The position numbers and the translations under genes are program-made. A stretch of DNA of 17,050 bases from contig QMPN01000035.1 in NCBI GenBank assembly GCA_003648575.1, positions 1-17,050 on the forward strand. The letters are read 5' to 3'. The notes under the pieces were generated by a model. That model saw nothing but the letters and a program-made list of their open reading frames with translations. It did not search any database and had not been told where the DNA came from. The DNA comes from Bacteroidota bacterium. Its GTDB lineage: Bacteria > Bacteroidota > Bacteroidia > Bacteroidales > B18-G4. Shown in pieces: positions 4,074 to 16,929 of this stretch (its first letter is position 1; the number at the start of each line of letters is the position of its first letter).

Positions 4074-4092
4074 AGGGCAAGGCTTAGCACTT

Positions 4093-4100
4093 CAAAAATA
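4093..4100 (-). promoter_or_regulatory. Possible -7 promoter element of the Rieske/cytochrome b operon
   Basis: On the minus strand this reads TATTTTTG, matching the Bacteroidota TAnnTTTG element, 19 bases before the Rieske start codon. No good TTTG -33 box is seen at the ideal distance; ATTG (plus-strand CAAT at 4122-4125) lies 21 bases upstream. An identical octamer stands 24 bases before tatC. A single octamer can occur by chance. Confidence 0.4.
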
Positions 4101-4350
4101 GGGATTATTATCCAATCTGCTCAATGCTGCACAACATACTATTCAGAATCCCTCTAAATTACCTACTGTTAATAATTAACAATACTGATTTTCAGTCACT
4201 TATAATACTTGTTGATTATTTGAATATGTTTCTACATTAAACTGTAAGATGCTGTCTTACTGGCACTTATACTAACATACAATTATCTATATGTCTATAT
4301 GGGTTTGATTTACTGCTAGTTACAGGCTGCTTTTATGTACAAAAACACAC

Positions 4351-4381
4351 TTTCCCAGCCCACGAATTATTAATAATTTTG
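4351..4381 (+). promoter_or_regulatory. Candidate Bacteroidota-type promoter for the Mo-enzyme operon
   Basis: TAATTTTG at 4374-4381 fits the Bacteroidota -7 consensus TAnnTTTG. TTTC at 4351-4354 lies 19 bases upstream, near the consensus TTTG -33 box. It is followed by a leader of roughly 60 bases before the start codon at 4449. This is the best-spaced promoter in the intergenic region. Confidence 0.5.
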
Positions 4382-4448
4382 TGTAGGTTAAATATGATAA
4401 TATCTACATATTTATTTGCAAATCAAGATTTATAAACAATCACAGATA

Positions 4449-6683
4449 ATGGCAAACAGAAGAGATTTCATTAAGGTTTCAGCCCTTGGGATCGGTGGCC
4501 TTGCGGTGAGCGCGTCAGCATTCAATATTTTAAAAGCTGCGGTACCACAGGACCTGATCAATAAGGATTCCGATCCACAAAAGGGGCTCAGGCGATATCC
4601 AACCTACTGCGAAGTATGTTTTTGGAAGTGTGCCGGCTGGACCTATACCGATGAGGATGGTAAGATCATCAAGATATTGGGTAATGAAGAAGATCCCCAT
4701 TGCAATGGCAGGTTGTGCCCCAGGGGTACAGGTGGTGTTGGCATGTACAATGATAAAGACAGGCTGACCACTCCTCTTATACGTGAGGGAGAGCCCGGAA
4801 GTCAGACTTACCGCAAAGCAAGCTGGGATGAAGCCCTGAGCCTGGTCGCCACCAAGATGGCGGAAATCAAAGAAAAGTACGGTCCGGAAGCTATGGCGCT
4901 CTTCAACCATGGTTCATCAGGACATTATTTCGGGCACATGCTCAAAGCTTATGGATCAAGCAACATTGTTGCACCTTCTTATGCACAATGCCGTGGCCCG
5001 CGTGAGGTTGGCTTTACAGCTACTTTCGGATCCGGGGTTGGTTCGCCGGAACCTACCGACATCCGCGACACCAGATGCCTGGTACTGATTGGATCCCACC
5101 TGGGAGAAAACATGCACAACGGGCAGGTTCAGGAAATGTCAGATGCCATCGACAAAGGCGCTACTATTATCACGGTAGACCCAAGGTTATCGACAGCAGC
5201 CAGCAAGTCGAAATACTGGCTCCCGATCAAACCTTCTACCGATCTTGCACTATTGCTTGCATGGATACACGTGCTGATCTATGAAGAGCTTTACGACAAA
5301 GAATACATCGACAAATATGCTTTTGGCTTGGACCAGCTTAAAAAGCATGTTAAGAATATGACACCGGAATGGGCCTATGGGATTACCACCATCAAGCCGG
5401 ATGTTATCAGGAAAACTGCCCGTGAGATGGCCAATGCTTCACCGGCCACTATTATACATCCGGGCCGCCATGTAACATGGTATGGTGATGACACTCAGCG
5501 AGCAAGGGCTGTTGCCATCCTCAACGCACTGGTAGGTTCCTGGGGCCGCAGGGGTGGATTTTATTTCAAGGAGAGCCTGAAGCTTCCACATTATCCGCAT
5601 CCGGAATATCCTAAGCCAAACTGGTCGTGGAGAGAAACCATGAACGGTAAATATCCGCTCGCCGGGCTTGCCATATCCAACACTCTTATCGAAGCGTCTA
5701 TTCCATCAGAGGAGAATAAACATCAGATCCATGGCTGGCTGGTATCAGGAACCAACCTTCCACTCACCATGCCGGACAAAGCCACGCTGGCGAAAGCCAT
5801 GCAGTCGCTCGACTTCATTGCGGTAGTTGACACTATGCCTATGGAGATCACCGGATGGGCTGATGTGATCCTGCCGGAATGTACATATCTTGAGCGTTGG
5901 GATGACATTCGTGTTTCACCCCACAGGGAACCATACCTGGCCCTGAGGATGCCGGCTGCCGAACCGAAAGGCGATACCAAGCCTGCCTGGTGGATGGCAA
6001 AGCAAATTGGTGAAAAGCTGGGACTTGGTGCATATTTCGATTATGAAGATTATACAGAAGTCCTCGACTGGCAACTACAAAAAGTAGGTTCTTCGCTCGA
6101 GGAGATGAAGAAGATAGGAATTAAGAAGTTCGACAGAAAATCAGGAGGTTTATACCTGCTCCCGGGAGAGGATTACGAGTTCAATACCAATAGCGGAAAG
6201 ATCGAACTGTTCTCCACCGACCTTCAGGCAGAAGGCTTCGACCCCATGCCGGTATTTACACAGCATGCAGAGCCACCGCAGGGTTTTTACCGGCTGATCT
6301 ATGGCCGTGCGCCCATGCATACCTTCAGTCGTACTGCCAACAATCCCAACCTGACCGCCCTTATGCATGAAAACACATGCTGGATCAACCCTAAAGTGGC
6401 TGATCAGTGGGGCATTGAAAATAGTCAGTATATCTGGCTTAAAAACCAGGATGGTATTGTTTCAGACTTCCCAATCCGTGTCAGGGTGACGGAAAGGATC
6501 CGCTGGGACTCGATATATATGGTACACGGATTCGGGCATAAGGAACATAAGCTTTCCCTGGCTTACGGGAAAGGGGCCGCCGACTCTTATATGATCACCA
6601 ATGTTATGGTCGATCCCATCATGGGAGGAACCGGTATGAGGGGGAACTTTGTTACTTTCCTCACAGAGGATCCACACGTATAG
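4449..6683 (+). CDS. Molybdopterin oxidoreductase, PsrA/PhsA-like catalytic subunit, Tat-exported
   Basis: A 744-residue catalytic subunit of the complex iron-sulfur molybdoenzyme (DMSO reductase) family. The chosen ATG gives the N-terminus MANRRDFIK followed by a hydrophobic stretch, a classic twin-arginine signal; an upstream TTG at 4416 would only add a poor extension. Cys54, Cys57, Cys61 and Cys90 form the N-terminal 4Fe-4S motif (CEVC-x3-C ... LCPRG). Cys181 in YAQCRGPRE is the likely Mo ligand. Other family landmarks are YNDKDRLTTPL, RKASWDEAL, VDPRLS and the C-terminal dinucleotide-binding domain. The order catalytic subunit, Fe-S protein, NrfD is that of polysulfide, thiosulfate and tetrathionate reductases and of SoeABC sulfite dehydrogenase. 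Two sulfur transporters and two rhodanese-like proteins follow. A sulfur substrate is therefore likely, but which one, and the direction, is not shown by sequence. Confidence 0.92.
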   Translation: MANRRDFIKVSALGIGGLAVSASAFNILKAAVPQDLINKDSDPQKGLRRYPTYCEVCFWKCAGWTYTDEDGKIIKILGNEEDPHCNGRLCPRGTGGVGMYNDKDRLTTPLIREGEPGSQTYRKASWDEALSLVATKMAEIKEKYGPEAMALFNHGSSGHYFGHMLKAYGSSNIVAPSYAQCRGPREVGFTATFGSGVGSPEPTDIRDTRCLVLIGSHLGENMHNGQVQEMSDAIDKGATIITVDPRLSTAASKSKYWLPIKPSTDLALLLAWIHVLIYEELYDKEYIDKYAFGLDQLKKHVKNMTPEWAYGITTIKPDVIRKTAREMANASPATIIHPGRHVTWYGDDTQRARAVAILNALVGSWGRRGGFYFKESLKLPHYPHPEYPKPNWSWRETMNGKYPLAGLAISNTLIEASIPSEENKHQIHGWLVSGTNLPLTMPDKATLAKAMQSLDFIAVVDTMPMEITGWADVILPECTYLERWDDIRVSPHREPYLALRMPAAEPKGDTKPAWWMAKQIGEKLGLGAYFDYEDYTEVLDWQLQKVGSSLEEMKKIGIKKFDRKSGGLYLLPGEDYEFNTNSGKIELFSTDLQAEGFDPMPVFTQHAEPPQGFYRLIYGRAPMHTFSRTANNPNLTALMHENTCWINPKVADQWGIENSQYIWLKNQDGIVSDFPIRVRVTERIRWDSIYMVHGFGHKEHKLSLAYGKGAADSYMITNVMVDPIMGGTGMRGNFVTFLTEDPHV

Positions 6684-6706
6684 AAAAGTAAAATTCAAAA
6701 TCCAGC

Positions 6707-6728
6707 ATTCAAAATTCAGAATTTGAAT
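6707..6728 (+). repeat. AT-rich inverted repeat between the Mo subunit and the Fe-S subunit
   Basis: ATTCAAA (6707-6713) pairs with TTTGAAT (6722-6728) around an 8-base loop. A related direct copy, ATTCAAAATCC, precedes it. The stem is weak and lies in the 71-base gap inside the operon. It may be a small dispersed repeat or a processing or attenuation site. There is no T-tract, so it is not a convincing terminator. Confidence 0.35.
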
Positions 6729-6741
6729 CTAAGATATAAAC

Positions 6742-6748
6742 AGGAGGA
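6742..6748 (+). promoter_or_regulatory. Strong Shine-Dalgarno sequence for the Fe-S subunit
   Basis: AGGAGGA stands seven bases before the ATG at 6755. Most other genes in the window have A-rich leaders with no such site, so this one stands out and fixes the start of the Fe-S subunit. Confidence 0.7.
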
Positions 6749-6754
6749 ATTATC

Positions 6755-7288
6755 ATGAGATATGCGATGGCAATAGACACCAGAAAATGCGTTGGATGCA
6801 GTGACTGCGTGGTTGCCTGTCAAACCGAGAATAATGTCCCGATCGGGTATTGCCGCGACTGGATCACCGAGACCGTCGACGGTTCTTACCCGAATGTTGA
6901 GATCGAGCTCAGGACCGAGCGCTGTAACCATTGTGATAACGCACCTTGTGTAAGGTGCTGCCCCACAGGTGCAAGTCATATTGTTGATGGTGGTGCTGTG
7001 CTTGTAACACCAAATAAATGTATCGGATGTGGCGCATGCATACAGTCATGCCCCTACGATGCCCGTTATTCCCATCCGGAAGGCTACGTCGACAAATGTA
7101 CTTTCTGTAACCACAGGGTGATCAAAGGCGAGCAGCCGGCATGCGTTTCTGTATGCCCTACAAAGTGCATGTATTTCGGCGACCTGGATGATCCGGACAG
7201 TGATGTTTCAAAAGCCTTGAAAAACAGAAAATACAAGGCCCTGGCACCTGAAGCGGGAACGAAACCACATATTTTCTACATGATCTAA
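6755..7288 (+). CDS. Four-cluster 4Fe-4S electron-transfer subunit (PsrB/NrfC/PhsB type)
   Basis: A 177-residue ferredoxin-like subunit with sixteen cluster cysteines in four groups: C12-x2-C15-x2-C18-x3-C22; C57-x2-C60-x4-C65-x3-C69 followed by P; C89-x2-C92-x2-C95-x3-C99 followed by P; and C115-x2-C118-x11-C130-x3-C134. This is the standard pattern of the electron-transfer subunit that links the Mo catalytic subunit to the NrfD membrane anchor. It has no signal peptide of its own, which fits co-export with the Tat-targeted catalytic subunit (known for this family). Its length is typical. An extra cysteine, Cys68, lies next to Cys69 within the second group. Confidence 0.95.
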   Translation: MRYAMAIDTRKCVGCSDCVVACQTENNVPIGYCRDWITETVDGSYPNVEIELRTERCNHCDNAPCVRCCPTGASHIVDGGAVLVTPNKCIGCGACIQSCPYDARYSHPEGYVDKCTFCNHRVIKGEQPACVSVCPTKCMYFGDLDDPDSDVSKALKNRKYKALAPEAGTKPHIFYMI

Positions 7289-7309
7289 GCATAAAACAAA
7301 CATAATCAT

Positions 7310-8251
7310 ATGAAAGAAGAATTGATCATAAGCGGCAGGATGAACCCGGGCATCGACCCCTTTCTGCATATATGGCACTGGCATATTCCGGTTTACCTTT
7401 TCCTGGGTGGACTGGCTGCCGGCATATTGTTCTTTGCTGCCCTTTATACAATTATGGGTAGAGAAAAAGAGATGCCAACGGCAGTAAAATGGGCAACCTT
7501 TGTGGTCCCAGTCGCCCTGGTATTTGGCCTAATGGCCCTGTTCTTTGACCTCAAGCACCAGATGTTTTTCTGGCAGCTATATACTACAGTCAGGATAGAG
7601 TCCCCTATGTCGTGGGGAGCCTGGGTGCTAATGTTTATCACACCCCTGTCGATGTTATGGGCAGCCAGCTATATCAAAGAAGCCATCCCAAGCTGGGAAT
7701 GGAAGTTTAAGATCCTTGACCAGATTATGACCCTGGTGGATAAATACCGTAAAACCCTTGCATGGGCCATGCTAGCCCTGGCGATCATCCTGGGAATCTA
7801 TACCGGTATTCTCCTGTCGGCTTTCAATGCACGTCCGTTGTGGAACACCTCCCTTCTCGGACCGCTCTTCCTGGTTTCAGGGATGTCGACCGGTGCAGCC
7901 ACCATTTTGTGGATGTCGAAAGACCATTATGAACGCCGGATCATGAGCATGATCGACCTGGTTCTGATCGTTGTAGAGATATTCTTCATCATCCACCTCT
8001 TTATGGGCTTCCTCGCCAGCACAGCAGTACAAATAGAAGCAGCGGACCTCTTCCTTGGCGGACAGTTTACCGTTTCTTTCTGGGTATTTGTTGTGATCCT
8101 TGGCCTGGTGTTTCCTGCCATACTGGAGATACTCGAGCTTAGCGGACGTAAGATCCCGGCAGCCATACCTGCCCTGCTCATCCTCTTTGGAGGCCTGGCC
8201 CTCAGGTTTATTATGGTAGAAGCAGGACAACTGACACGATATTTTTATTAG
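7310..8251 (+). CDS. NrfD/PsrC-type quinone-interacting membrane subunit
   Basis: A 313-residue integral membrane protein with about eight hydrophobic helices. The beginning WHWHIPVYLFLGGLAAG and the segment ESPMSWGAW (about residues 96-104) are typical of NrfD/PsrC proteins, as is the later WNTSLLGPLFLVSGMSTGAA. In this family the subunit anchors the Mo/Fe-S dimer on the periplasmic face and exchanges electrons with menaquinol. It carries no haem. It starts 21 bases after the Fe-S subunit stop, with an A-rich leader and no clear ribosome binding site. Together with the two preceding genes it completes a PsrABC-like respiratory complex. Confidence 0.93.
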   Translation: MKEELIISGRMNPGIDPFLHIWHWHIPVYLFLGGLAAGILFFAALYTIMGREKEMPTAVKWATFVVPVALVFGLMALFFDLKHQMFFWQLYTTVRIESPMSWGAWVLMFITPLSMLWAASYIKEAIPSWEWKFKILDQIMTLVDKYRKTLAWAMLALAIILGIYTGILLSAFNARPLWNTSLLGPLFLVSGMSTGAATILWMSKDHYERRIMSMIDLVLIVVEIFFIIHLFMGFLASTAVQIEAADLFLGGQFTVSFWVFVVILGLVFPAILEILELSGRKIPAAIPALLILFGGLALRFIMVEAGQLTRYFY

Positions 8252-8275
8252 TATTCGATCGTAAACAAAAAAACA

Positions 8276-8806
8276 ATGAATACATCAATAACAGACAGAA
8301 GTAAAATATATGCAAACCCTTACCTGAGTGGTTTCCTGCTCGGAATGATATTGCTTGCCACCTTTTATATTACCGGCAGGGGACTGGGTGCCAGCGGTGC
8401 CATTAAGTCCACTGTGGTTACTGCAGTGAACGCGGCAGCCCAAAATCACGCCGGGAATTCAGCCTACTATAGCAAGTTCATCAGCGATGACCATCATCCC
8501 ATGAACAACTGGCTGGTATTTGAAATTCTTGGTGTGCTGGCCGGTGCTTTCCTTTCGGGAGCCATCGCAGGCAGGTTAAAATTAAAGGTAGAGCATTCAC
8601 CCAAGATCTCTTCCAGAACCCGCCTGATTATGGCAGGTATCGGAGGCATCTTATTCGGGATAGGGTCACAACTCGGACGAGGATGTACCAGTGGTGCTGC
8701 CCTCAGTGGTATGGCCAGCATGGCCCTTGCAGGCTTTATTGCCTTGCTCACCATTTTTGGAGGAGGCTACCTCTTTGCATACTTTTTTAGAAAATTTTGG
8801 ATTTAG
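8276..8806 (+). CDS. YeeE/YedE-family sulfur transport protein, half-size unit 1
   Basis: A 176-residue membrane protein with about four hydrophobic helices and the family signature SQLGRGCTSGAALSG, with Cys137 at its centre. YeeE/YedE proteins carry thiosulfate or other sulfur species through conserved cysteines. The large forms contain two such halves, whereas here the halves are separate genes, this one followed after 21 bases by the second. A hydrophilic segment at about residues 50-75 (QNHAGNSAYYSKFISDDHH) lies between the first and second helices. The position inside the Mo-enzyme operon suggests it moves the substrate or the sulfur product of the complex across the inner membrane. Substrate and direction are not shown. 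Confidence 0.88.
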   Translation: MNTSITDRSKIYANPYLSGFLLGMILLATFYITGRGLGASGAIKSTVVTAVNAAAQNHAGNSAYYSKFISDDHHPMNNWLVFEILGVLAGAFLSGAIAGRLKLKVEHSPKISSRTRLIMAGIGGILFGIGSQLGRGCTSGAALSGMASMALAGFIALLTIFGGGYLFAYFFRKFWI

Positions 8807-8827
8807 AAATCATTTAGAATTAAAGAT

Positions 8828-9421
8828 ATGACTGGACCATTAATACCCATGGGCGCAATAGGACAGAGCTGGGACCTGGTAATCGCTCTTTTGATCGGAA
8901 TGGCCTTCGGATATGTGCTGGAGTCAGCAGGCTTCTCATCATCGAGAAAACTTGCAGGTGTGTTTTATGGATACGATTTCACCGTATTACGTGTATTTTT
9001 CACAGCAGCCATTACAGCCATGCTGGGTTTGCTATATTTCGGATATATGGGATGGCTCGACCTCTCCATGATCTACGTAAATGAAACCTATGTGATCGCC
9101 ACTATTGTGGGCGGACTCATCATGGGCCTGGGATTTATCACAGGCGGCTACTGCCCGGGAACAAGCATGTGCGGTGTCGCCATCGGAAAGATCGATGCCA
9201 TGGTATTTACCGGAGGGATGTTTGTTGGGATACTGATTTTCTCAGAAGCATTCTCGCTTTTCGAAGGCATCTATTACAGCAACTCCCTGGGGCCTGTGAA
9301 GGTTTACGACTCACTGGGGCTTTCTTCAGGTGTATTTGCCTTGCTGCTTATCGTTGTGGCCCTCGTGGCATTTGTATTCGCCAGGATCATACAAAACAAA
9401 GTAAAAAAAGTAGATTATTAA
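8828..9421 (+). CDS. YeeE/YedE-family sulfur transport protein, half-size unit 2
   Basis: A 197-residue membrane protein with about five hydrophobic helices and the family signature GFITGGYCPGTSMCGVAIG, with Cys109 and Cys115. It is the likely partner of the preceding half-size unit: each brings one cysteine-bearing re-entrant segment (GRGCTSG and GGYCPGTS), as expected for the two halves of a full transporter. It starts 21 bases after unit 1 and ends 11 bases before the first rhodanese gene, so all are surely co-transcribed. The second cysteine, Cys115, is not matched in unit 1. Confidence 0.88.
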   Translation: MTGPLIPMGAIGQSWDLVIALLIGMAFGYVLESAGFSSSRKLAGVFYGYDFTVLRVFFTAAITAMLGLLYFGYMGWLDLSMIYVNETYVIATIVGGLIMGLGFITGGYCPGTSMCGVAIGKIDAMVFTGGMFVGILIFSEAFSLFEGIYYSNSLGPVKVYDSLGLSSGVFALLLIVVALVAFVFARIIQNKVKKVDY

Positions 9422-9432
9422 TCATATAGCTT

Positions 9433-10047
9433 ATGAACAAAGCATATTATATACTTGCAGCTTTCCTGATCATTCTCGGAGTGGGATTATTGGTCCTTCC
9501 GGAAAGGGACCGTCCCGATGAAGCTTCACCCCGTGAACTGCTCGGTGATCTCAGAAACCCCTCACGCTTCATCTCCACTGATAAAGTGGCTGAGATGCTT
9601 ATTGATAAGGATCCAACACTGGTCCTCGTCGATGTCAGGGATATGTATGACAACCTCGACTTCAGCCTGCCCGGAGCACACAGTATTCCATTGGAAGAGA
9701 TCCTTGTGTATGACTGGGTCGACTCGCTGGCGTATGAGAAAAGCAAGGTTGTACTTTTTTCAAACAGCGATATCAAGGCTGAGCAGGCCTGGCTCCTGCT
9801 GAAAAGAGAGAACCACAATAACATCCACGTGATGAAAGGGGGACTGAACTGCTGGTTTGAGACTATTATTCAGCCTACAGCACCACCAGAAACCGCTGCT
9901 AATGATGAGATTGACCGCTATGAGTTCAGGAAAGGAGCCTCCATATATTTCACTGGCGGTTCTGCCCCTATTGAAACAGAAGCAGGCGCTGAGCCCGTGG
10001 TGGTCAGGAGAAAAAACAAAACACAAGTTGTAGAAGGAGGTTGTTAA
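9433..10047 (+). CDS. Membrane-anchored rhodanese-like protein without active-site Cys, C-terminal VVEGGC tail (1)
   Basis: A 204-residue protein. One N-terminal hydrophobic helix (residues 5-22) with Lys3 before it suggests that the rest lies in the periplasm. Residues ~45-145 have the rhodanese fold pattern: VLVDVRD (64-70), LPGAHSIP (79-86), VVLFSNSD (106-113) and MKGGLNCW (134-141). In active rhodaneses the VV-x-x-C position holds the persulfide cysteine; here it is Ser110. The only cysteines are Cys140 and the very last residue, Cys204. The tail is a linker followed by RRKNKTQVVEGGC, almost the same as in the next gene. Some sulfur-carrier or persulfide-binding role by the terminal thiol is my inference. 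It belongs to the Mo-enzyme operon, 11 bases after the second YeeE/YedE unit. Confidence 0.88.
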   Translation: MNKAYYILAAFLIILGVGLLVLPERDRPDEASPRELLGDLRNPSRFISTDKVAEMLIDKDPTLVLVDVRDMYDNLDFSLPGAHSIPLEEILVYDWVDSLAYEKSKVVLFSNSDIKAEQAWLLLKRENHNNIHVMKGGLNCWFETIIQPTAPPETAANDEIDRYEFRKGASIYFTGGSAPIETEAGAEPVVVRRKNKTQVVEGGC

Positions 10048-10051
10048 CCTC
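10037..10051 (+). other. Small hairpin over the stop codon of the first rhodanese gene
   Basis: GAGGTT (10037-10042) and AACCTC (10046-10051) can pair around a GTT loop. The stem includes the stop codon and part of an internal AAGGAGG. That Shine-Dalgarno-like sequence is too far (about 27 bases) from the next ATG to serve it. The hairpin is short and may simply come from coding the EGGC tail. Confidence 0.3.
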
Positions 10052-10066
10052 ACAAAAACAAGAATT

Positions 10067-10711
10067 ATGCAATTTAAACACCCAAACAGGTCATTTGTAG
10101 CTTTTGTTATCACTTTTATTGTTGTGATCGTAGTAGGACTGCTCACCCTCAACTGGCCTGACCTGAAATACCAGCTTAGCCTGGAAGAAACAGTCGAGCA
10201 GATTATGCTAGAAGAAGACCAGATCTTTCCTGAAGACCTTGTTGGCATCATTGAATACGAAGATTCTGCTTATGTGATCATCGACGTACGGAACCCTTTT
10301 GAATATATCAATGGCCATATCAATGGTGCATTAAATATTCCTACCAACAGCCTGCTGGATAAAGAAAACATAAAAGCTTTTAAACAATATGCAACAGATT
10401 CACTCATCGTTGTACTATATGGACAAGACCAGTTGGAAGCCAATGGGCCCTGGATGATCCTTAAACAAATAGGATTCGATAATTTCCAGGTACTAATGGG
10501 AGGATATCATTACTTCACTACAGGACCGCTCGACTTTTACGATATGCCTGAAGTGCCAGCTTACCTCGTAGAGGAACCGGCTTACGATTATTACGGTATC
10601 ATGGAAGAGATGGGAAGCACTTCCTTTGAAGATGCAGGTTCATCTGACCAGCCGGAGGTGGTGATCCCAAGCAGAAAAAAGAAAGGAAGCGTTGTTGAAG
10701 GGGGTTGTTAG
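10067..10711 (+). CDS. Membrane-anchored rhodanese-like protein without active-site Cys, C-terminal VVEGGC tail (2)
   Basis: A 214-residue protein with a positively charged N-terminus (Lys4, Arg8), one hydrophobic helix (residues 10-28) and a rhodanese domain at about 40-155, probably in the periplasm. The domain is close to consensus at IIDVRNPFEYINGHINGALNIP (71-92), so the fold is intact. The active-site position in VVLYGQDQ is Gly119, not Cys. The protein has a single cysteine, the last residue, Cys214. After an acidic, Tyr- and Pro-rich linker (160-200) comes SRKKKGSVVEGGC, matching the tail of the preceding gene. The two domains are clearly different in sequence, so the shared tail looks selected rather than left from a recent duplication. 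It is the last gene of the Mo-enzyme operon. Confidence 0.88.
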   Translation: MQFKHPNRSFVAFVITFIVVIVVGLLTLNWPDLKYQLSLEETVEQIMLEEDQIFPEDLVGIIEYEDSAYVIIDVRNPFEYINGHINGALNIPTNSLLDKENIKAFKQYATDSLIVVLYGQDQLEANGPWMILKQIGFDNFQVLMGGYHYFTTGPLDFYDMPEVPAYLVEEPAYDYYGIMEEMGSTSFEDAGSSDQPEVVIPSRKKKGSVVEGGC

Positions 10712-10799
10712 GAACCAAAACCCTGAATATATAATCAGATTGACATGACTGCATGTGATCTATATCAACAAAATTGTTATTATAAATCAACACTCTGTC

Positions 10800-10830
10800 T
10801 TGACTGCTCGAAGTTAAAGTCGTACATTTG
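10800..10830 (+). promoter_or_regulatory. Candidate Bacteroidota-type promoter for the small membrane protein
   Basis: TACATTTG at 10823-10830 fits TAnnTTTG, with TTG at 10800-10802 placed 20 bases upstream. Transcription would begin at about 10835-10838. That rules out the TTG at 10828 as a start codon and supports the ATG at 10855. Confidence 0.5.
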
Positions 10831-10854
10831 AAATATCATATAAAATCAATTCTG

Positions 10855-11091
10855 ATGAGGAGAAAACATGTGTTAGCGAATTTTGCACTGCTCTTTGGTG
10901 CTTTTGGTTTCCTGGGATACATCTTTATCGTTATTGCCGGCTATTTGGGCTGCTGTGCCAACATCACTTCTGCGCTCTACCATAACATAGTGATCATCAT
11001 CCTTGTCATTGCATTTGCCCTCTTTGCCGTTTGCATGTACAACAACTGCTGTAAGCTCCCAAAAGGACCTGAAGAGAAAAACAAAGCTTAA
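10855..11091 (+). CDS. Small two-helix membrane protein with two Cys-Cys pairs, function unknown
   Basis: A 78-residue protein that I do not recognise. After MRRKH come two hydrophobic helices (about residues 7-30 and 39-58). A Cys-Cys pair lies at the end of the first helix (GYLGCCAN), a single Cys follows in the second (AVCMY), and another Cys-Cys pair comes just after it (NNCCKLP). The tail is charged (GPEEKNKA). With the positive residues inside, the first pair would be near the periplasmic face and the second near the cytoplasmic face. A TTG 27 bases upstream keeps the same frame but lies inside the probable -7 promoter element, so I chose the ATG. It follows the sulfur operon by 143 bases on the same strand. 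It lacks the three-helix layout of MerT. A link to sulfur or thiol chemistry is a guess from cysteines and position. Confidence 0.65.
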   Translation: MRRKHVLANFALLFGAFGFLGYIFIVIAGYLGCCANITSALYHNIVIIILVIAFALFAVCMYNNCCKLPKGPEEKNKA

Positions 11092-11146
11092 GATTCTAAT
11101 TTCCGTTGCCCACTACGGAGGGAAGGATTCCTGTCTCTTAAATGAT

Positions 11147-11998
11147 TTATTCTGCCTCTGCGGCTAATCGTCTTTTATGTACCCTCTTTGCAATCACGAT
11201 GCTTAATTCATACAATCCCCACAATGGTATGACTACCATTACCTGGCTGAAGATATCCGGAGGAGTAATAATGGCCGAAATGACCAGCAGGATCACCAGG
11301 GTATATTTCCTGTTCTTTTTCAGGAATTCCGGAGTAAGCAGGCCCACACGGGTAAAGAAGAATACGAAAACCGGAAGTTCAAATACAATCCCAACGGAAA
11401 GAGAAACAGAAACCACTGTGCTGATATATGAGCTCAGGGATACATTATTGGCTACTGCTTCACTCACCTGGTAGGTCCCCAGGAAGTTAATGGTTAGCGG
11501 GACAATAAGGAAGTAGCTGAACAACACACCAAACAAAAAGAGAATAGAGCATACGAAAACAGCCCCGCCGGAGTATTTTTTTTCCGTTGGCTTCAGCGCA
11601 GGCTGAATAAAGCTCCATATCTCATGGAGGATATAGGGAAAGGCCAGGATCACGCCTGCCATAATGGAAATATACATGTGGGTAAGGAACTGCCCCGACA
11701 TCTTTATGTTAATGATCTCGAGCTGGGAATTATCCAGGCACAATGCCTGAACACCTACAATATCGGCAAAGCGACAGAGCAGTTGTGTAGTCAGAAAATC
11801 CTCCCTGATAGGCGCCAGAATGATCTTATCAAAGATAAAGTCCTTGAAGATGAAAGCTACAATGCCCAGGATCAAAACGGCAGCGATAGATCGTACAAGG
11901 TTCCATCTCAGTTCCTCCAGGTGCTCCCAGAATGACATTTCCCTTTCCTTTTTGGGTGGAGGGGGTGGATTTTTCTTGGTCGTATTAAACTCTGCCAT
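11147..11998 (-). CDS. tatC: Twin-arginine translocase subunit TatC
   Basis: A 283-residue polytopic membrane protein with clear TatC landmarks. These are the N-terminal MSFWEHLEELRWNLVRS (about residues 20-36), the segment FLTHMYISIMAGVILAFPYILHEIWSFIQPAL with the family's F-P and PAL residues, LKPTEKK, and the late SAIITPPDIFSQV before the last helix. Six helices fit the sequence. An insertion between the first helix and the second (about residues 60-100, with two Cys, LLCRFADIVGVQALCLDN) is longer than in E. coli TatC. TatC recognises twin-arginine signals in the membrane; in this window the Mo catalytic subunit and the Rieske protein carry such signals. It is convergent to the small membrane gene, with 55 bases between stops and no clear terminator. 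Confidence 0.95.
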   Translation of the reverse strand: MAEFNTTKKNPPPPPKKEREMSFWEHLEELRWNLVRSIAAVLILGIVAFIFKDFIFDKIILAPIREDFLTTQLLCRFADIVGVQALCLDNSQLEIINIKMSGQFLTHMYISIMAGVILAFPYILHEIWSFIQPALKPTEKKYSGGAVFVCSILFLFGVLFSYFLIVPLTINFLGTYQVSEAVANNVSLSSYISTVVSVSLSVGIVFELPVFVFFFTRVGLLTPEFLKKNRKYTLVILLVISAIITPPDIFSQVMVVIPLWGLYELSIVIAKRVHKRRLAAEAE

Positions 11999-12022
11999 GC
12001 AGTTCTTTTATCAATTTGAATC

Positions 12023-12030
12023 CAAAAATA
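12023..12030 (-). promoter_or_regulatory. Possible -7 promoter element of tatC
   Basis: The minus strand reads TATTTTTG, fitting TAnnTTTG, 24 bases before the tatC start codon. It is the same octamer, at a similar distance, as in front of the Rieske gene. I see no clear -33 partner. Confidence 0.4.
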
Positions 12031-12049
12031 GTAAATCCCTTGAAATTAT

Positions 12050-12057
12050 TATGTTTG
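12050..12057 (+). promoter_or_regulatory. Possible -7 element upstream of the heptamer array and isoprenoid gene
   Basis: TATGTTTG fits TAnnTTTG. If used, the transcript would carry the whole heptamer array as its leader before the gene at 12271. No TTTG lies 19-21 bases upstream, so support is weak. Confidence 0.25.
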
Positions 12058-12080
12058 TAATGTTAGGTATTGGGCGTTGG

Positions 12081-12270
12081 GCATTCAGAAACTTGAAACT
12101 TGATACTAGAAACCAGTAGGCAGTAAGCAGTAGGCAGTAGGCAGTAAGCAGTAAGCAGTCGGCATCCAGAATCCAGAATCCAGAATCCAGCAACCAGCAA
12201 CCAGCAACCAGTAACCAGTAACCAGTAACCAGTAACCAGTAACCAGTGACCAGCAACCAGTATCCAGTAC
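12081..12270. repeat. Heptamer tandem repeat array (about 27 units)
   Basis: A continuous array with strict 7-base phase. The unit drifts from GAAACTT through GTAGGCA/GTAAGCA, ATCCAGA and AACCAGC to AACCAGT. The most homogeneous blocks are three ATCCAGA-type units (about 12164-12188), three AACCAGC-type (about 12189-12209) and five AACCAGT-type (about 12210-12244). The array runs directly into the start codon of the next gene. Read on the minus strand it gives open frames rich in Leu, Thr, Gly, Tyr and Trp, which I regard as spurious. This is not a CRISPR: there are no spacers. Confidence 0.93.
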
Positions 12271-13266
12271 ATGATAATAAATAATATACTCAGGCTTCCA
12301 TCAGCATATTATTCCCTCTACAGGGATGTTAAGAGGCAGAGGCGCTTTGTTGGTAAAGTGATTGAAGGGGATATTCAGGATGCCATGCAGGACAATGACG
12401 GCACACTGGATGAAGAAGATTTTGAGAAGATCAGAAATTATTACGGCTTTGGCGTGCCGGCCATAGTTGGAGAAGGCATTTGTACGCTACGGGGTACACC
12501 CATGAATGAAAGGGAACGCCGGGCAAGCTCCTACCAGGGCGCACTCACCGGCTTATATGATGACTTTTTCGACAAGACCCATTTGACAGAAGATGAGATC
12601 AGGGCCATGATGGATGATCCTGCAAGGTATAAAGCTTCATCATCGCTGGAATCTCTTTTCATTCAATGCCTGCAAGAGGTTCATAAGAATCTTTATGACA
12701 AAGCTTTGTTCAATGTGTATTTCGACAGGGTTTTCAGTGCTCAGATAGAAAGTAAAAAACAGGCAAATGAAGGTTTGAGCCATGCGACCATCAAGAAGAT
12801 CACCTTCCTTAAAGGTGGAAATTCAGTACTTTTTTACAGGAGTATCTTTGAACACAGCCTGCAAGAGGGTGAAGAAGAAGCATTGTTTCACATTGGTGCA
12901 CTCATGCAAGTGGGGAATGATATCTTTGATGTTTATAAGGATGAGAAAGCCGGTATACGAACGCTCCCGACAAGTTGTGCACAGATCGATGATGTCAGGA
13001 TTATATTTACAACGCAGCTTAATAAAAGCATTGGCCTGATCCGGAATACCGGCTACAGGCAACAGGATATTTCACGCTTCATCAACAAGCTAGTATTAGG
13101 AATATCGAGGTGTTTTGTGTGTATGGATCAGTTGGAAAGTCTGCAGCAAAAGACAGGCGGCCGCTTTCTCCCCTCAGAATATAGTCGCAAAGAGCTCATT
13201 TGTGACATGGAAAAGCCCGGAAACATTATACGCGCCCTTCGGTATTTTTTGAAATACAGGTATTAA
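12271..13266 (+). CDS. Class I isoprenoid-synthase-like protein
   Basis: A 331-residue, mostly helical soluble protein. It has an aspartate-rich DDFFD at residues 97-101 (in GLYDDFFDKT), matching the DDxxD metal-binding motif of class I prenyl/terpene synthases. About 115 residues later comes NDIFDVYKD at 216-224, matching (N/D)Dxx(S/T/D)xxx(E/D), the second Mg-binding motif. The pair and its spacing make the fold likely. The sequence is not a typical FPP/GGPP synthase or squalene/phytoene synthase, so I give no product. The start ATG lies at the end of the heptamer array with no ribosome binding site visible; a later in-frame start (Met39 or Met78) would remove conserved-looking sequence. 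Its stop TAA shares the TTAA at 13263-13266 with the convergent queA stop. Confidence 0.75.
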   Translation: MIINNILRLPSAYYSLYRDVKRQRRFVGKVIEGDIQDAMQDNDGTLDEEDFEKIRNYYGFGVPAIVGEGICTLRGTPMNERERRASSYQGALTGLYDDFFDKTHLTEDEIRAMMDDPARYKASSSLESLFIQCLQEVHKNLYDKALFNVYFDRVFSAQIESKKQANEGLSHATIKKITFLKGGNSVLFYRSIFEHSLQEGEEEALFHIGALMQVGNDIFDVYKDEKAGIRTLPTSCAQIDDVRIIFTTQLNKSIGLIRNTGYRQQDISRFINKLVLGISRCFVCMDQLESLQQKTGGRFLPSEYSRKELICDMEKPGNIIRALRYFLKYRY

Positions 13267-14480
13267 TCCTTCCTGAAGAAAAGACAACTGTCGCCATAAC
13301 TCAAGAACCTGAAGCCATGCTCCAACGCGTAAGCATAGGCATGCTGCCAGGCTTCTCCGGCAAATGCAGCCACCAGCAGAAGAAGCGTGCTTTTAGGCAT
13401 ATGAAAATTGGTGACCAGGATATCCACAATCCTGAATTTGTATCCGGGAATGATGATCAGGCTTGTAATGCCGCTGATCTCATCAATCCCTTTCTGATCC
13501 ATATGCTTTAAAATATTGTTCAGTGATTCCTCTGTGGAAATATCAGGAGCCTTCTCATAGGGCTGCCATTGCTTTACACAGAATTCAGCTTCAGTATCTG
13601 ATGCCAGTGCATGTCCAAACCAGTAAAGGCTCTCCAGTGTCCTCATAGAGGTGGTCCCGACCGCCGTTAGCTTGCCATCATTGTTCAGCAATGATTTTAT
13701 CAAAGTCCGCTCAACAATGATCTGTTCTCTATGCATTTCATGATCGCGGATATCATCATGGCTCACCGGCTTAAAGGTACCTGCACTCACATGAAGGGTC
13801 ACATGGCCCGCCTGTATACTTTTTCTTTTCAGGGCATCCAGTACATTTTTGGTAAAATGCAATCCGGCAGTAGGTGCCGCAACAGAACCGTCCTGCTTTG
13901 CATAAATGGTCTGGTAGCTGTTAAGGTCGCCCTCTTCAGCTTCACGTTCGATGTATGGTGGCAGCGGGACTTTGCCTGCAGCCTCAAGCACTTCTGCTAA
14001 GGCCATATCGGGCGGGTCCCAGGTAAAATGCACCAGGAAAGCACCATCAGCATCTGCCGTTCTTTCTGCTTCAAAATTGATCTTGCCCTGAGGTGCATCC
14101 AGCAGCATGCTCAGCTTACCACTACGCCATTTCTTTGCATTACCGATCAGGCATTTCCAACTTACTCCTGAGCGGGCCTCAAAGGCTTTGGCGATCTCGG
14201 ATGTTGGCAAAACCGGCTCCAGGCAGAAGACCTCTATCCTGGCTCCCGTTTCCTTGCGAAATACGAGCCTTGCCCTGATAACCCTCGTATCATTGAATAC
14301 CATCATCCCGCCATCCGGCAGGTACTCAGGCAGCTTATTGAATACATCCTCCGCCGGATGATCCCCTTGCATGATCAGCAGGCGTGATGTATCGCGCTCT
14401 TCCACCGGATATTCAGCAATGCGATCCTGCGGAAGATCGTAAGCATACTTATCCATGCATATGGGATGGCCTTCATTCAT
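13263..14480 (-). CDS. queA: S-adenosylmethionine:tRNA ribosyltransferase-isomerase QueA
   Basis: QueA transfers and rearranges the ribose of SAM onto 7-aminomethyl-7-deazaguanine in tRNA, giving epoxyqueuosine. The 405-residue sequence shows the family segments YDLPQDRIAEYPVEERD (14-30), VFNDTRVIRARL (61-72), SVAAPTAGLHFT (199-210), VGTTSMRTLESL and, near the C-terminus, TNFHMPKSTLLLLVAAFAG. It is longer than the ~350-residue E. coli enzyme, with an extra segment at about 230-350. The ATG at 14480 overlaps the stop of the upstream hydrolase gene (TGATG), favouring coupling. Met9 at 14456 (MDKYAYDLP) is an equally plausible start on homology. The 3' end overlaps the isoprenoid gene's stop. 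Confidence 0.95.
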   Translation of the reverse strand: MNEGHPICMDKYAYDLPQDRIAEYPVEERDTSRLLIMQGDHPAEDVFNKLPEYLPDGGMMVFNDTRVIRARLVFRKETGARIEVFCLEPVLPTSEIAKAFEARSGVSWKCLIGNAKKWRSGKLSMLLDAPQGKINFEAERTADADGAFLVHFTWDPPDMALAEVLEAAGKVPLPPYIEREAEEGDLNSYQTIYAKQDGSVAAPTAGLHFTKNVLDALKRKSIQAGHVTLHVSAGTFKPVSHDDIRDHEMHREQIIVERTLIKSLLNNDGKLTAVGTTSMRTLESLYWFGHALASDTEAEFCVKQWQPYEKAPDISTEESLNNILKHMDQKGIDEISGITSLIIIPGYKFRIVDILVTNFHMPKSTLLLLVAAFAGEAWQHAYAYALEHGFRFLSYGDSCLFFRKD

Positions 14481-15259
14481 CAGATCTGATCTTTGAGGAA
14501 TTGTGAAACATGTTCGAAGAACTCCTTCGGGGCATCGGCATGTACCCAGTGGGTCCCCTCCTTTATCGTATGCAGGTCCATGTTGTTAAAATTCTTTTTC
14601 ATGACCGGGATATCTTCTTCAATGATATAGTCGGACCTTCCGCCACGAATAAACAAGGTAGGCTGATCAAAAACAGTTGAATAAAACACCCCGTCGTACA
14701 TGGAATCCATGTTGAGGTCGATGGCTTCCAGGTTTATTCTCCATCCCAGTATATCTTTCTCCTTCCAGAAAAGGTTTTTCATCAGAAACTGGACAATGCG
14801 TGGGCTGTCGATGAAAGTTTTCATATGCTGTTCCACATCCTGCCGGGATGATGCTTTAGAAAAATCGACTGATTTCATGGCATCGATCAAAGTCCGGTGA
14901 TATGTGTGCGAAATATAGGTACGCATACTGGTATCCACTACAATAAGTGCGCTCACATCATCAGGGTTTTCGAGGGTATAACGCATGGCTACCTTTCCTC
15001 CCATAGAATGACCCAGGATAATGGGCATCTCTATCTCCTGCTGCTCGATAAACTCTACCAGATCGTCGACCAGGGCATAATAAGTAAAAGCATAATGATG
15101 CGGTGAGCGGCCATGATTACGCTGGTCGAGCAGGTACACTTCAAAGCCCATATCAGCGATCCGCTTCCCAAATGTGACCCAGTTGTCGGAGATACCGAAG
15201 ATCCCATGAAGGATGATAAGAGGCCTACCGGAGCCGTATTTTTTGAAATGGAGATTCAT
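14480..15259 (-). CDS. Alpha/beta hydrolase (YbfF-like esterase family)
   Basis: A 259-residue serine hydrolase. Visible elements are the oxyanion-loop segment LHGIFG (17-22), DQRNHGRSP (45-53), and the nucleophile elbow GHSMGG with Ser85. An acid in GGRSDY and the catalytic His in EGTHWVHAD follow near the end. The short size and DQRNHGRSP fit the YbfF/ABHD11-type esterases; the substrate is unknown. I start the gene at the ATG 15257-15259 (MNLHFKKYG). A longer frame to 15367 exists, but those 36 extra residues (repeats of MSHVSSL type) are only the translation of a heptamer repeat array. The gene is coupled to queA by TGATG. Confidence 0.88.
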   Translation of the reverse strand: MNLHFKKYGSGRPLIILHGIFGISDNWVTFGKRIADMGFEVYLLDQRNHGRSPHHYAFTYYALVDDLVEFIEQQEIEMPIILGHSMGGKVAMRYTLENPDDVSALIVVDTSMRTYISHTYHRTLIDAMKSVDFSKASSRQDVEQHMKTFIDSPRIVQFLMKNLFWKEKDILGWRINLEAIDLNMDSMYDGVFYSTVFDQPTLFIRGGRSDYIIEEDIPVMKKNFNNMDLHTIKEGTHWVHADAPKEFFEHVSQFLKDQI

Positions 15260-15280
15260 CGGGGCAAAGGTAAGAATATT

Positions 15281-15350
15281 AGACATGAGACATGAGACAT
15301 GAGACATGAGGCTTGAGACTTGAGATATGAGACTTGAGACATGAGGCAAG
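15281..15350. repeat. Heptamer tandem repeat array, AGACATG/AGACTTG type (10 units)
   Basis: Ten units in perfect 7-base phase: four AGACATG, then AGGCTTG, AGACTTG, AGATATG, AGACTTG, AGACATG and AGGCAAG. It directly abuts a GTCATCCTGA-type repeat. A shorter array of the same unit with the same flank lies at 16794-16828. Confidence 0.93.
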
Positions 15351-15404
15351 TAGATAAAAATTGTCATCCTGATCCCGTGGAGCGAAGCGAAGCGGGAGAA
15401 GGAT
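15351..15404 (+). repeat. Dispersed intergenic repeat, TAGATAAAAATTGTCATCCTG type, copy 1
   Basis: Starts TAGATAAAAATTGTCATCCT and continues with a GAGCGAAGCGAAGCGGGAG core and AGAAGGATC. Related copies are at 15535-15597 (reverse), 16578-16630, 16728-16775 (reverse) and 16829-16895. The GTCATCCTGA...GCGAAGC...GAAGGATC style is a familiar non-coding repeat of environmental Bacteroidota genomes. Confidence 0.75.
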
Positions 15405-15423
15405 CGGTATCAAGTTGCACCCA

Positions 15424-15488
15424 TGTTGGCAGAACATCCTGCTAGCGAATGACACAACTGCTGGCAGAACATCTTGCTGGCTTAATGC
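15424..15488. repeat. Two direct copies of a ~28-base unit
   Basis: TGTTGGCAGAACATCCTGCT (from 15424) and TGCTGGCAGAACATCTTGCT (from about 15459) are imperfect direct repeats. They lie between two inverted copies of the GTCATCCTGA-type repeat. No coding potential is seen. Confidence 0.6.
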
Positions 15489-15534
15489 AAAACTACACGC
15501 AAAGCCCTCTATCTGTGGCGGAGAAAATTGATAC

Positions 15535-15597
15535 AGTTCCTTCGTCGTTCACTGCGTTCTCTCCTCAGGATAACAATTTTCACCTACAGGCTTTAAT
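15535..15597 (-). repeat. Dispersed intergenic repeat, reverse copy 2
   Basis: Read on the minus strand it begins GTAGGTGAAAATTGTTATCC and continues TGAGGAGAG...GACGAAGGAAC, a diverged copy of the repeat at 15351-15404 in opposite orientation. The pair bounds a segment of about 245 bases, like a small non-autonomous element. Confidence 0.6.
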
Positions 15598-15674
15598 GAT
15601 AAAGTATCCATCCTACTAAGCAGGTCTTGGTTAATTCAGAAAATATTTTATAGATGGTTTTTTTGAAGTGCAGA

Positions 15675-15902
15675 CTACAGTTCCAAGTTCTGAGGCAATA
15701 ACTCGTCCAGCTTGTTTACTTTGTGCTCAGGTATAATCTCTAGCACTCTTTTAAGCCAGTCGAAAGGATTTACATCATTCTTTTTGCAGGTTCCAAAAAA
15801 TGAGTAGAACATGGCAGCCCTTTCAGCCCCTCTGGATGATCCGGCAAACAGGTAGTTTTTCCTTCCCAGGGCGATTGGCCGGATAGCATTTTCTGCCGTG
15901 GA
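15675..15902 (-). pseudogene. IS66-family transposase, C-terminal remnant
   Basis: The minus strand encodes the last 75 residues of an IS66 transposase. It begins with AENAIRPIALGRKNYLFAGS, which includes the final Glu of the DDE triad (AEN) and the family-typical IRPIALGRKNYLF. Then come RGAERAAMFYSFFGTCK, NDVNPFDWLKRVLE, IPEHKVNKLDELLP and a TAG stop. The first ~400 residues are missing: upstream on the same strand the sequence turns into an LRR-like gene in another frame. So this is a dead fragment left by deletion or recombination. I could not find a convincing terminal inverted repeat on the 15600-15670 side. Confidence 0.9.
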
Positions 15903-16372
15903 TTGTCTCTTATGATAAATTCTCCATTTATCATACTTAAGCTTTCCAATCCGCTGAAGTTGTACAATGAATCATTATATGTTATGCTAAAATCACCATT
16001 TATAGCAGTAAGACTGCTAATGCCCTCTAGGTTTATTAATGCTTCATTATCCCAAACATTAAAACTTCCATCTATCGTTGTTAAACTCCCAATTCCTGAA
16101 AGGTTATGTAAAGAGTCAGTACTATAAATATTGAAATCACCTCCTATATATGTTAAAACACTTAAACCATTTAAATTTGAAATGCCAATACCAGAAGAAT
16201 TAGCATATATAGATACACTGCCTTCAATTTCTGAACATCCAGGATAATTAAATTGAAAACTATCTACTTCTAATTGATTTTTAAAAACAATCCCTTCAGG
16301 TAAGCACGATTGACAAATTCCACCTAAGTGAAAGAGAATCATTGATATGCAAAAAAACATGGAAACCCTCAT
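15770..16372 (-). pseudogene. Truncated secreted LRR-like protein, 3' end replaced by out-of-frame IS66 sequence
   Basis: The first ~157 residues are a secreted protein. A signal peptide (MRVSMFFCISMILFHLGGICQS) is followed by CLPEGIVFKNQLEVDSFQ and a Cys-bearing NYPGCSEIEGSVSIY. Then come regular ~24-residue repeats of the form (S)L-x-x-(I/L)-x-G-(D/S/E)-F-x-I-x-x-(N/D)-(D/E)-x-L-x-N-(L/F)-x-G. This receptor-L-domain/LRR-like type is common in Bacteroidota cell-surface proteins, usually longer and with a secretion-sorting C-terminus. After Asp156-Asn157 the frame runs into IS66 transposase DNA read in the wrong frame and stops at 15770. The gene is therefore truncated and probably non-functional. 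Lower G+C than its neighbours suggests it belongs to the accessory genome. Confidence 0.75.
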
Positions 16373-16407
16373 AATCTCAGTTGTTAGTATTATTTTGCAT
16401 TATGCTT

Positions 16408-16429
16408 CAATTGTCTATAAATACAATTG
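16408..16429. promoter_or_regulatory. Inverted repeat upstream of the LRR-like gene
   Basis: CAATTGT (16408-16414) and ACAATTG (16423-16429) are a perfect inverted pair around CTATAAAT, 36 bases before the LRR-like start codon. It is placed like an operator or promoter element. AT-rich surroundings make chance occurrence possible. Confidence 0.35.
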
Positions 16430-16577
16430 CATTTACACACCCAAACAAGGATATATTGGTCATTGACTTAATACACCCTCTATTGGCAGTAAAGGACAAT
16501 ATCAAATATAGAAATAAATAAGATGTGACAGCAGCAAAAATCGTCAATTAAAAATTCTGGTTAAAAAAATCCAAAGT

Positions 16578-16775: not shown

Positions 16776-16793
16776 TATTTCCTAAAATAAATG

Positions 16794-16895: not shown

Positions 16896-16929
16896 GACCG
16901 CCTTCCCTTTAGCTCCTGGCATATTAAAA

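Follow-up and report, generated by a model that had tools for sequence, protein, structure and literature searches.

A stretch of 17,050 nucleotides from a Bacteroidota bacterium (contig QMPN01000035.1 of assembly GCA_003648575.1, positions 1 to 17,050 of the forward strand; hereafter the window) carries on its + strand an operon in the order molybdenum (Mo) oxidoreductase, 4Fe-4S subunit, NrfD (together the Phs subunits), YeeE_C, YeeE_N, Rhd1, and Rhd2. The last two genes encode rhodanese-like proteins that lack the cysteine of the catalytic loop and end in Gly-Gly-Cys. Our bioinformatics analyses of this operon and its relatives favor a SoxY-like carrier arm, mounted on a dead rhodanese, that would exchange sulfane sulfur or thiosulfate with the pore of the neighboring YeeE transporter, a reading to which we give a probability of roughly 0.6.

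A terminal cysteine on diverged rhodanese domains

Rhd1 (204 aa; 9433..10047, + strand) consists of a transmembrane (TM) anchor at residues 3-21, a rhodanese fold at about residues 45-145, a helix at residues 157-174, and a tail ending in VVEGGC, and Rhd2 (214 aa; 10067..10711, +) has a TM anchor, a rhodanese-fold domain without the loop cysteine, and an arm with the same ending. Both match the Pfam Rhodanese family PF00581 (39.1 bits for Rhd1 and 55.6 bits for Rhd2, cut-off 22.2), and they are 27% identical to each other by BLASTP. At the position where an active single-domain rhodanese has its loop cysteine, Rhd1 has Ser110 (codon 9760..9762, +) and Rhd2 has Gly119 (codon 10421..10423, +). 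The only cysteines of Rhd1 are Cys140 and Cys204, the latter (codon 10042-10044) closing a C-terminal arm of residues 175-204 (9955..10044, +), and Cys214 (codon 10706..10708, +) is the only cysteine of Rhd2. The tails, RRKNKTQVVEGGC in Rhd1 and SRKKKGSVVEGGC in Rhd2, both conform to R-K-x-K-x-x-V-V-E-G-G-C. A previous interpretation of the window made from its letters alone (the sequence-only reading) had described both proteins exactly, namely the replacement of the loop cysteine, the nearly identical tails on diverged domains, and, apart from Cys140 of Rhd1, the restriction of cysteine to the last residue.

The same features recur in close relatives. In alignments of 120 listed of the 164 Rhd1 matches and of all 89 Rhd2 matches, with the window protein added and rows without a residue at the position in question disregarded, the terminal cysteine was found in 119/120 Rhd1-family sequences among the matches listed and in 88/89 Rhd2-family sequences, and a cysteine in the loop column in 0/90 Rhd2-family sequences and in 2/121 of the Rhd1 family, again among the matches listed. 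A profile search of genome contigs gave 222 related loci, the best 80 of which (74 from Bacteroidota groups, 4 from Chlorobiota, and 2 from Neomarinimicrobiota) repeat the order Phs-YeeE_C-YeeE_N-Rhd1-Rhd2 as far as their contigs extend, with few exceptions. When these loci are taken together with the window, Rhd1 retains the terminal cysteine in 80 of 81 cases, the remaining one being truncated by the contig end, and Rhd2 in 75 of 76, the exception being an open reading frame (ORF) that stops early and is tail-less (L024; loci and genomes are cited by our L and G numbers). The loop position of Rhd1 is Ser in 76, Cys in 3, and Ala in 2 of the 81, and that of Rhd2 is Gly in 54, Ala in 13, His in 5, Asp in 2, Ser in 1, Tyr in 1, and Cys in none of the 76. 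Cys140 of Rhd1 is poorly kept (33/81). One residue can come after the terminal cysteine, as in the variants GGCG, GGCD, GGCS, and EGCF. The 80-locus counts, as well as the tail pairing and codon comparison given below, exclude four ORFs that had initially been assigned to Rhd2: two lipoprotein-like rhodanese proteins (L062_11731 and L071_8566), an active rhodanese with an IGGC tail (L019_1352), and a partial third copy ending in AGGC (L002_2582). Among the 3166 other mechanical ORFs of the 80 loci, GGC(+0-2) endings, where the brackets give the number of residues that follow, occur in 8, all of them members of two clusters, and the representatives scanned from these clusters are rhodaneses. 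No relative was found in the viral contigs searched.

A nucleotide motif in the tail codons, such as a Shine-Dalgarno-like GGAGG, was ruled out because the choice of Gly-Gly-Cys codons varies freely across 148 genes. The stop codon after GGC is TAA in 102, TAG in 33, and TGA in 13 cases, and no selenocysteine was seen at the terminal position in the tails read. A further type of tailed protein, a tandem rhodanese of ~300 aa with a signal-peptide-like start and a GGC end, is encoded upstream of PhsA in L008, L023, L026, L029, L035, L039, and L042. These proteins account for seven of the eight members of their cluster, their second-loop cysteine is intact (CNTG in the three that were read), and by sequence they are likely to be active sulfurtransferases with the same arm.

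An AlphaFold2 (AF2) model of Rhd1 built from 71 sequences, with a mean predicted local distance difference test score (pLDDT) of 82, shows the TM helix 3-21, a rhodanese core, and the helix 157-174, and matches solved rhodaneses with a Foldseek E of about 1e-6. Residues 178-194 and 200-204 of its arm have pLDDT <50, as does the arm in the AF2 model of a YeeE_N-rhodanese fusion (see below), and these values suggest that the arm is mobile. Rhd proteins thus share with swinging-arm carriers a near-invariant cysteine near the C-terminus and a Gly-rich arm, the flexibility of which is read from low pLDDT only. Conservation and pLDDT together bear out the earlier proposal that the loop cysteine was lost and a cysteine retained on a C-terminal arm of predicted disorder. 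The mean net charge around the anchor is +1.5 before and -0.8 after it in Rhd1 (71/75 sequences with a clear TM segment) and +1.5 and -1.1, respectively, in 120 listed fusions, a positive-inside pattern that points to N-in/C-out insertion and therefore to a domain outside the membrane; the rhodanese domain of Rhd1 and of the fusions is accordingly predicted from charge to be periplasmic.

In the 75 operons in which both tails were read, the last 14 residues of Rhd1 and Rhd2 share 11.0 identities within the same genome compared with 7.6 between different genomes, and 20,000 permutations reached a maximum of 8.32, below the observed value. The position three before the cysteine is identical in 68/75 pairs, and the identity of the domain cores is the same within (20.9%) and between genomes (20.8%). 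Recent gene conversion was rejected as the cause of the matched tails, there being no excess of identical codons: identical residues share their codon at 42% of tail sites, where the codon usage of the genes themselves would predict 46%, and the corresponding rate is 41% for the core and 42% for comparisons between genomes. The simplest reading is a shared pressure from one partner; an older conversion with saturated silent sites is compatible with these figures, and base composition may contribute to the choice between Lys and Arg.

A constant transporter module with exchangeable sulfur enzymes

The transporter next to Rhd1 is split into a PmpA-like C-terminal half, YeeE_C (8276..8806, +; PF04143 profile positions 176-309), and a PmpB-like N-terminal half, YeeE_N (8828..9421, +; profile positions 10-157). 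Cys137 of YeeE_C is present in 77/77 and Cys109 of YeeE_N in 78/79 sequences, i.e. the window encodes a split YeeE of the PmpA/PmpB type, with two half-length PF04143 proteins and one conserved cysteine in each. The link between this pair and the tailed rhodaneses was followed in an even sample of 395 genomes from the phylum to which Draconibacterium mangrovi belongs (Bacteroidota). With up to 8 candidates scored per genome, at least 65 of the 395 match the Rhd1 profile, and the YeeE_N profile matches in 65 genomes at 69 places. At 67 of these 69 places a tailed rhodanese-like protein with an open frame adjoins YeeE_N or is fused to it, and in all 67 proteins the cysteine is last or last but one (GGLCS in two, FQC in one, and GC with 0-1 further residues in the rest). 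In one of the two other places (L208), the rhodanese frame is broken and a KKKKREGC tail is still encoded in another frame after the break. The single true exception is G340, in which a divergent YeeE (31%) adjoins a metallo-beta-lactamase-rhodanese protein with Cys-bearing loops, and it is also the only case that turned up when similar operons with a kept loop cysteine and no tail were sought at the 69 places. The close tie between tailed rhodaneses and the YeeE pair put forward by the sequence-only reading is thus supported. Fusions, composed of YeeE_N, one extra TM segment, the rhodanese domain, and the tail, account for 35 of the 69, and two tailed proteins occur together at only two, namely G138 and the main locus of G001.

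The fusion is a large family in its own right, its profile matching 3637 of 7999 scored proteins at an E of 1e-20 or better. All 120 of the 3637 that were listed end in GGC and possess the YeeE cysteine (Cys107), none has a loop cysteine, and 96 contain exactly three cysteines in the polypeptide; many of the named fusions among the matches listed are from Ignavibacteria. When Rhd1 and Rhd2 are added to a wider set of 72 proteins, the residue in the loop column is Ser in 28, Ala in 24, Gly in 19, Cys in 2 (L130 and L199), and Asp in 1. Of six genomes with a match to the Rhd profile and no YeeE_N, five (L214-L218) contain untailed rhodaneses, and the sixth is G300 (L133), which encodes two tailed Rhd proteins together with Phs. 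As a control for specificity, 42 PF00581 matches were collected from four genomes, and the loci of 30 could be read in frame. Six of these end in GC(+0-2), all of them YeeE-associated, none with a loop cysteine and one with an equivalent of Cys140, and no such ending was found in the other 24 (Fisher p=4.7e-5), of which 22 hold a cysteine in the domain and two are first domains of two-domain proteins. Draconibacterium mangrovi (G001) has in addition a second YeeE pair (L111), followed by a diverged Rhd ending in DGGCE and a tail-less rhodanese-like protein of 144 aa.

Outside the phylum, a plasmid search with the fusion protein gave four records, three of which were examined. No annotated rhodanese adjoins the YeeE pairs on the Fusobacteria and Sulfuricella plasmids. 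The plasmid record of Gemmatirosa (Gemmatimonadota), which carries no annotation, encodes both YeeE halves and an Rhd protein that matches PF00581 with 54.7 bits and has a loop serine (LVLYSEGG) and the end RRGC. The mechanical 439-aa frame of this Rhd is a read-through in GC-rich DNA, and the real start was taken to lie inside the frame.

The sulfur enzyme beside the module differs from place to place. An octaheme cytochrome is found at 35 of the 69 places (33 with cytochrome b561), Phs subunits at 26 (including the main G001 locus and excluding L112 of G004, which lies outside the sample), a tandem rhodanese at 6 (in L111 only at a distance of several kb), and something else at 2 (G340 and L179, the latter lying at the end of its contig). 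The octaheme protein of L117 matches TIGR04315 with 578 bits (cut-off 375). The sequence-only reading had named the Mo enzyme as the partner of the tails, and the Phs subunits are indeed seen; as a general statement this was too narrow, the Mo enzyme being one of at least three partner types. Because the front-end enzyme is swapped across loci, the constant module is YeeE_C, YeeE_N, and the tailed rhodanese, and such an arrangement would be expected if one shared sulfur carrier served the transporter.

An operon of octaheme cytochrome, cytochrome b561, YeeE_C, and YeeE_N::Rhd(GGC) occurs in Bacteroidota loci L115-L123, L134, L166-L176, L178, and L180-L189 and makes up half of the YeeE_N places; in L117 it is preceded by a MarR-like gene. 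No publication on this operon turned up in searches of the open-licence literature. A third layout, with tandem rhodanese, YeeE_C, YeeE_N, and an Rhd ending in RMGC, is found in L195, L196, L205, and L206; a cysteine-desulfurase-like gene, judged by eye, comes after Rhd in L196, L206, and the Gemmatirosa locus L220. Near the operon in the 80 loci of the first search, type III SQR-like proteins are encoded in 17 loci (650 bits, cut-off 525, for the representatives scanned), DsrC-like proteins in 13, and DsrE2-like proteins, below the NCBIfam cut-off, in 12. In L021, L023, L029, L053, and others, the genes downstream of Rhd2 form a row of type III SQR-like, ~227-aa, DsrC-like, DsrE2-like, and TatC proteins, the DsrC-like member having a single cysteine and an SCI end.

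A proposed sulfur hand-over, known carriers, and alternatives

In the mechanism we propose, Rhd1 and Rhd2 would be catalytically dead, periplasmic, membrane-tethered scaffolds, the basic and disordered tail of which would offer the terminal Gly-Gly-Cys thiol, with the GGC arm of SoxY as an analogue. The front-end enzyme (PhsABC/NrfD here, and in other loci either an active tandem rhodanese or a cytochrome of the octaheme tetrathionate-reductase type) would load or unload this thiol with sulfane sulfur or thiosulfate, and the arm would swap sulfur with the pore cysteine relay of the split YeeE, formed by Cys137 of YeeE_C and Cys109 of YeeE_N. Conservation and gene context strongly suggest that the terminal cysteine is the working thiol; from the same comparisons we infer its thiol chemistry and its role in carrying sulfur to YeeE.

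Known sulfur carriers offer partial parallels. SoxY carries sulfur in the periplasm on a swinging arm with a GGC motif, as the putative Rhd arm would: its sulfur intermediates are bound to a cysteine on that arm (PMC5336275), the functional motif of which is considered to be GGC (PMC11237559). The latter paper places variant soxY genes of lucinid symbionts next to otr or in the vicinity of yeeE/D, dsrAB, and dmsAB, neighborhoods that resemble the gene company of the tailed rhodaneses. Unlike SoxY, the Rhd proteins have a rhodanese scaffold and a membrane anchor or a fusion to YeeE_N; neither Rhd1 nor Rhd2 matches the SoxY domain PF13501 at E 0.1, and no Sox domain was found among the 10 window proteins scanned. 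The SoxY profile exceeds its cut-off in 0/32 genomes with tailed proteins, the completeness of these genomes not being stated. By analogy, the candidate carrier arm most likely arose convergently with SoxY, on a catalytically dead rhodanese. With the rhodanese/thiosulfate sulfurtransferase family PF00581, Rhd1 and Rhd2 share fold and profile, whereas the catalytic loop cysteine is gone in nearly all Rhd proteins and a cysteine stands at the C-terminus instead. DsrC/TusE proteins are cytoplasmic and carry sulfur on a cysteine of their C-terminal arm in sulfur-energy metabolism; they differ in fold from Rhd1 and Rhd2, which share with them the position of the cysteine on such an arm and do not match the DsrC domain PF04358.

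Transporters of this family are served by cysteine proteins in other systems as well. YeeE works with the cysteine protein YeeD at the cytoplasmic face, and a partner of this type is naturally fused to the transporter in Corynebacterium pollutisoli (PMC11073785). A Cys-bearing partner thus serves the transporter in TsuA/YeeE-TsuB/YeeD, as Rhd would here, and fusions exist in both; YeeD, however, is TusA-like and acts at the cytoplasmic face, whereas the Rhd partner is a dead rhodanese, predicted to be periplasmic, with its cysteine on a tail. No TusA-like domain with CPxP was found in Rhd1 or Rhd2, the sole domain match of which is Rhodanese. PmpA and PmpB are half-transporters with one cysteine each (PMC11582611), as are the YeeE halves of the window. 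The same paper, on SoxT, regards a passage of sulfur from the SoxY cysteine along YeeE-type cysteines as conceivable and states that in Hyphomicrobium the second thiosulfate sulfur reaches the cytoplasm 'by unknown means' (PMC11582611). By analogy, YeeE_C, YeeE_N, and the tailed rhodanese are a candidate for a hand-over in the style of SoxY cysteine to pore. No YeeE-rhodanese fusion or terminal-Cys rhodanese was recognized in open-licence titles and the starts of abstracts, which is weak evidence of absence.

Other roles for the tail must be weighed. The terminal cysteine might be structural or redox-active, its disulfides, between Rhd1 and Rhd2 or within a homodimer, keeping the complex together or regulating it as a switch for oxidized sulfur. 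Rhd2 comes after Rhd1 in 75/80 loci and the paired tails match inside a genome, as this would lead one to expect. Two tails are nevertheless found at only 2 of the 69 places and fusions at 35, so a partner tail is not needed; the heterodimer or inter-tail disulfide considered by the sequence-only reading therefore fails as a general rule, which leaves room for a homodimer, and the Gly ahead of the cysteine with at most one residue behind it suggests access rather than a fixed bond. We regard this explanation as unlikely. Nearly the same doubt applies to a docking tag, in which the Lys/Arg stretch and the cysteine would bind Phs, YeeE, or a metal, and free thiosulfate or polysulfide would travel. 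Within close families a basic residue is indeed as constant as the cysteine (K196 in 120/120 Rhd1 sequences listed, R391 in 120/120 fusions listed), and the tails of pairs co-vary, but across the wider set the letters before GC vary (EEEEGGC in L059 and L080, SSGGGC in L063) around a constant cysteine, which is the same beside three unrelated front-end enzymes.

The direction of flow might also be outward and respiratory, the arm delivering persulfide or thiosulfate to Phs as electron acceptor, with YeeE confined to supplying or clearing sulfur. This would suit the best NCBIfam match of PhsA, a thiosulfate reductase, albeit below cut-off, and the octaheme tetrathionate-reductase-type cytochrome at 35/69 places; the SQR-like (17 loci), DsrC-like (13), and DsrE2-like (12) proteins suggest instead sulfide or sulfane oxidation and a cytoplasmic relay, and we consider outward flow improbable. 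Finally, the cysteine could be trimmed to expose Gly-Gly for thiocarboxylate chemistry. QbsE is a ubiquitin-like sulfur carrier with a GGCF end, and the tail of L043 is EGCF. In 26 of 72 tails, however, a single Gly precedes the cysteine (EGC, MGC, DGC), the domain is predicted to be periplasmic and hence apart from E1-like enzymes, and the invariant letter is the cysteine itself, all of which makes trimming very improbable.

Several observations weigh against the carrier arm that we prefer. Phs subunits occur with two tailed Rhd proteins in G300 (L133) and with one in L113 (G003), with no YeeE between. GGC tails are found on active rhodaneses too (the 7 tandem rhodaneses, L019_1352, and L059_7082), and some proteins keep the loop cysteine (3/81 Rhd1 proteins, 2/121 among the matches listed, and 2/74 of the wider set), which shows that tail gain and loop-cysteine loss can occur apart and are not strictly coupled. 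The cysteine of Rhd proteins is usually the very last residue, in which SoxY differs; the SoxY search gave no positive among 14 control genomes, and a sub-threshold match exists in G240 (22.7 bits, cut-off 28.4). In the AF2 model of the fusion (mean pLDDT 62 overall), the YeeE half is of poor quality, and for this reason the model was not used for docking. The Rhd2 anchor has a charge of +1.4 before and +1.1 after (73/75) and thus no clear side; the periplasmic, membrane-anchored domain of the sequence-only reading is backed by the anchor charges of Rhd1 and of the fusions and is left undecided for Rhd2. A wider form of the carrier-arm proposal, which we put at somewhat short of even odds, is that Bacteroidota and at least one member of the Gemmatimonadota replace SoxY by a dead rhodanese whose thiol has moved to a YeeE-tethered GGC arm, so that sulfur taken over from exchangeable enzymes of the periplasm would pass straight to the cysteines of the pore.

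Other genes of the window and significance

The front end of the window operon begins with a PhsA/PsrA-like Mo-bis(pyranopterin guanine dinucleotide) oxidoreductase (4449..6683, +; PF00384) with the twin-arginine leader MANRRDFIKV, the mechanical ORF of which begins ahead of it, at a TTG at 4416. Its best NCBIfam match, PRK15488 PhsA, scores 476.5 bits against an equivalog cut-off of 694 for the PhsABC thiosulfate reductase, and the cysteine in its SYAQC motif is presumably the Mo ligand. It is followed by a PhsB/PsrB-like 4Fe-4S ferredoxin-type electron transfer subunit (6755..7288, +; PF13247) and an NrfD/PsrC membrane subunit (7310..8251, +; PF03916, 156.8 bits). The operon thus shares with PhsABC/PsrABC the Mo subunit with a twin-arginine leader, the ferredoxin subunit, and the NrfD subunit, and differs from PhsABC in the sub-equivalog PhsA score and in its association with the YeeE pair and tailed rhodaneses.

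Divergent from the operon, a pair of genes at 922-4073 (-) encodes a Rieske protein and, next to it, a 910-aa protein in which cytochrome b is joined to an ExtM-like multihaem c region. This fusion scores 243 bits against NCBIfam ExtM (cut-off 800), and many relatives have the pair beside their operon, in clusters that cover 21 and 17 of the 80 loci. Beyond Rhd2, at 10828-11091 (+), lies a gene for an 87-aa membrane protein with paired cysteines (GCCAN and NNCC), which has relatives in 11/80 loci and gave no family match above cut-off in profile scans. At 12011-12256, between tatC and the next gene, a GGTTACTGG-like unit was seen by eye to recur imperfectly in the mechanical ORF LLVTGYWLLVTGYW.

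From a functional point of view, the tailed rhodaneses present a candidate carrier arm that is tied to its transporter, sometimes in one polypeptide, and because fusions with only three cysteines exist, the hand-over is open to single-residue tests. If the proposal is true, the Rhd proteins would be pseudoenzymes whose reactive thiol has been relocated to the tail, a role would be found for a large family now called only 'rhodanese-like' or 'YeeE/YedE', and the tailed module would provide a genomic marker of thiosulfate or sulfane handling in Bacteroidota.

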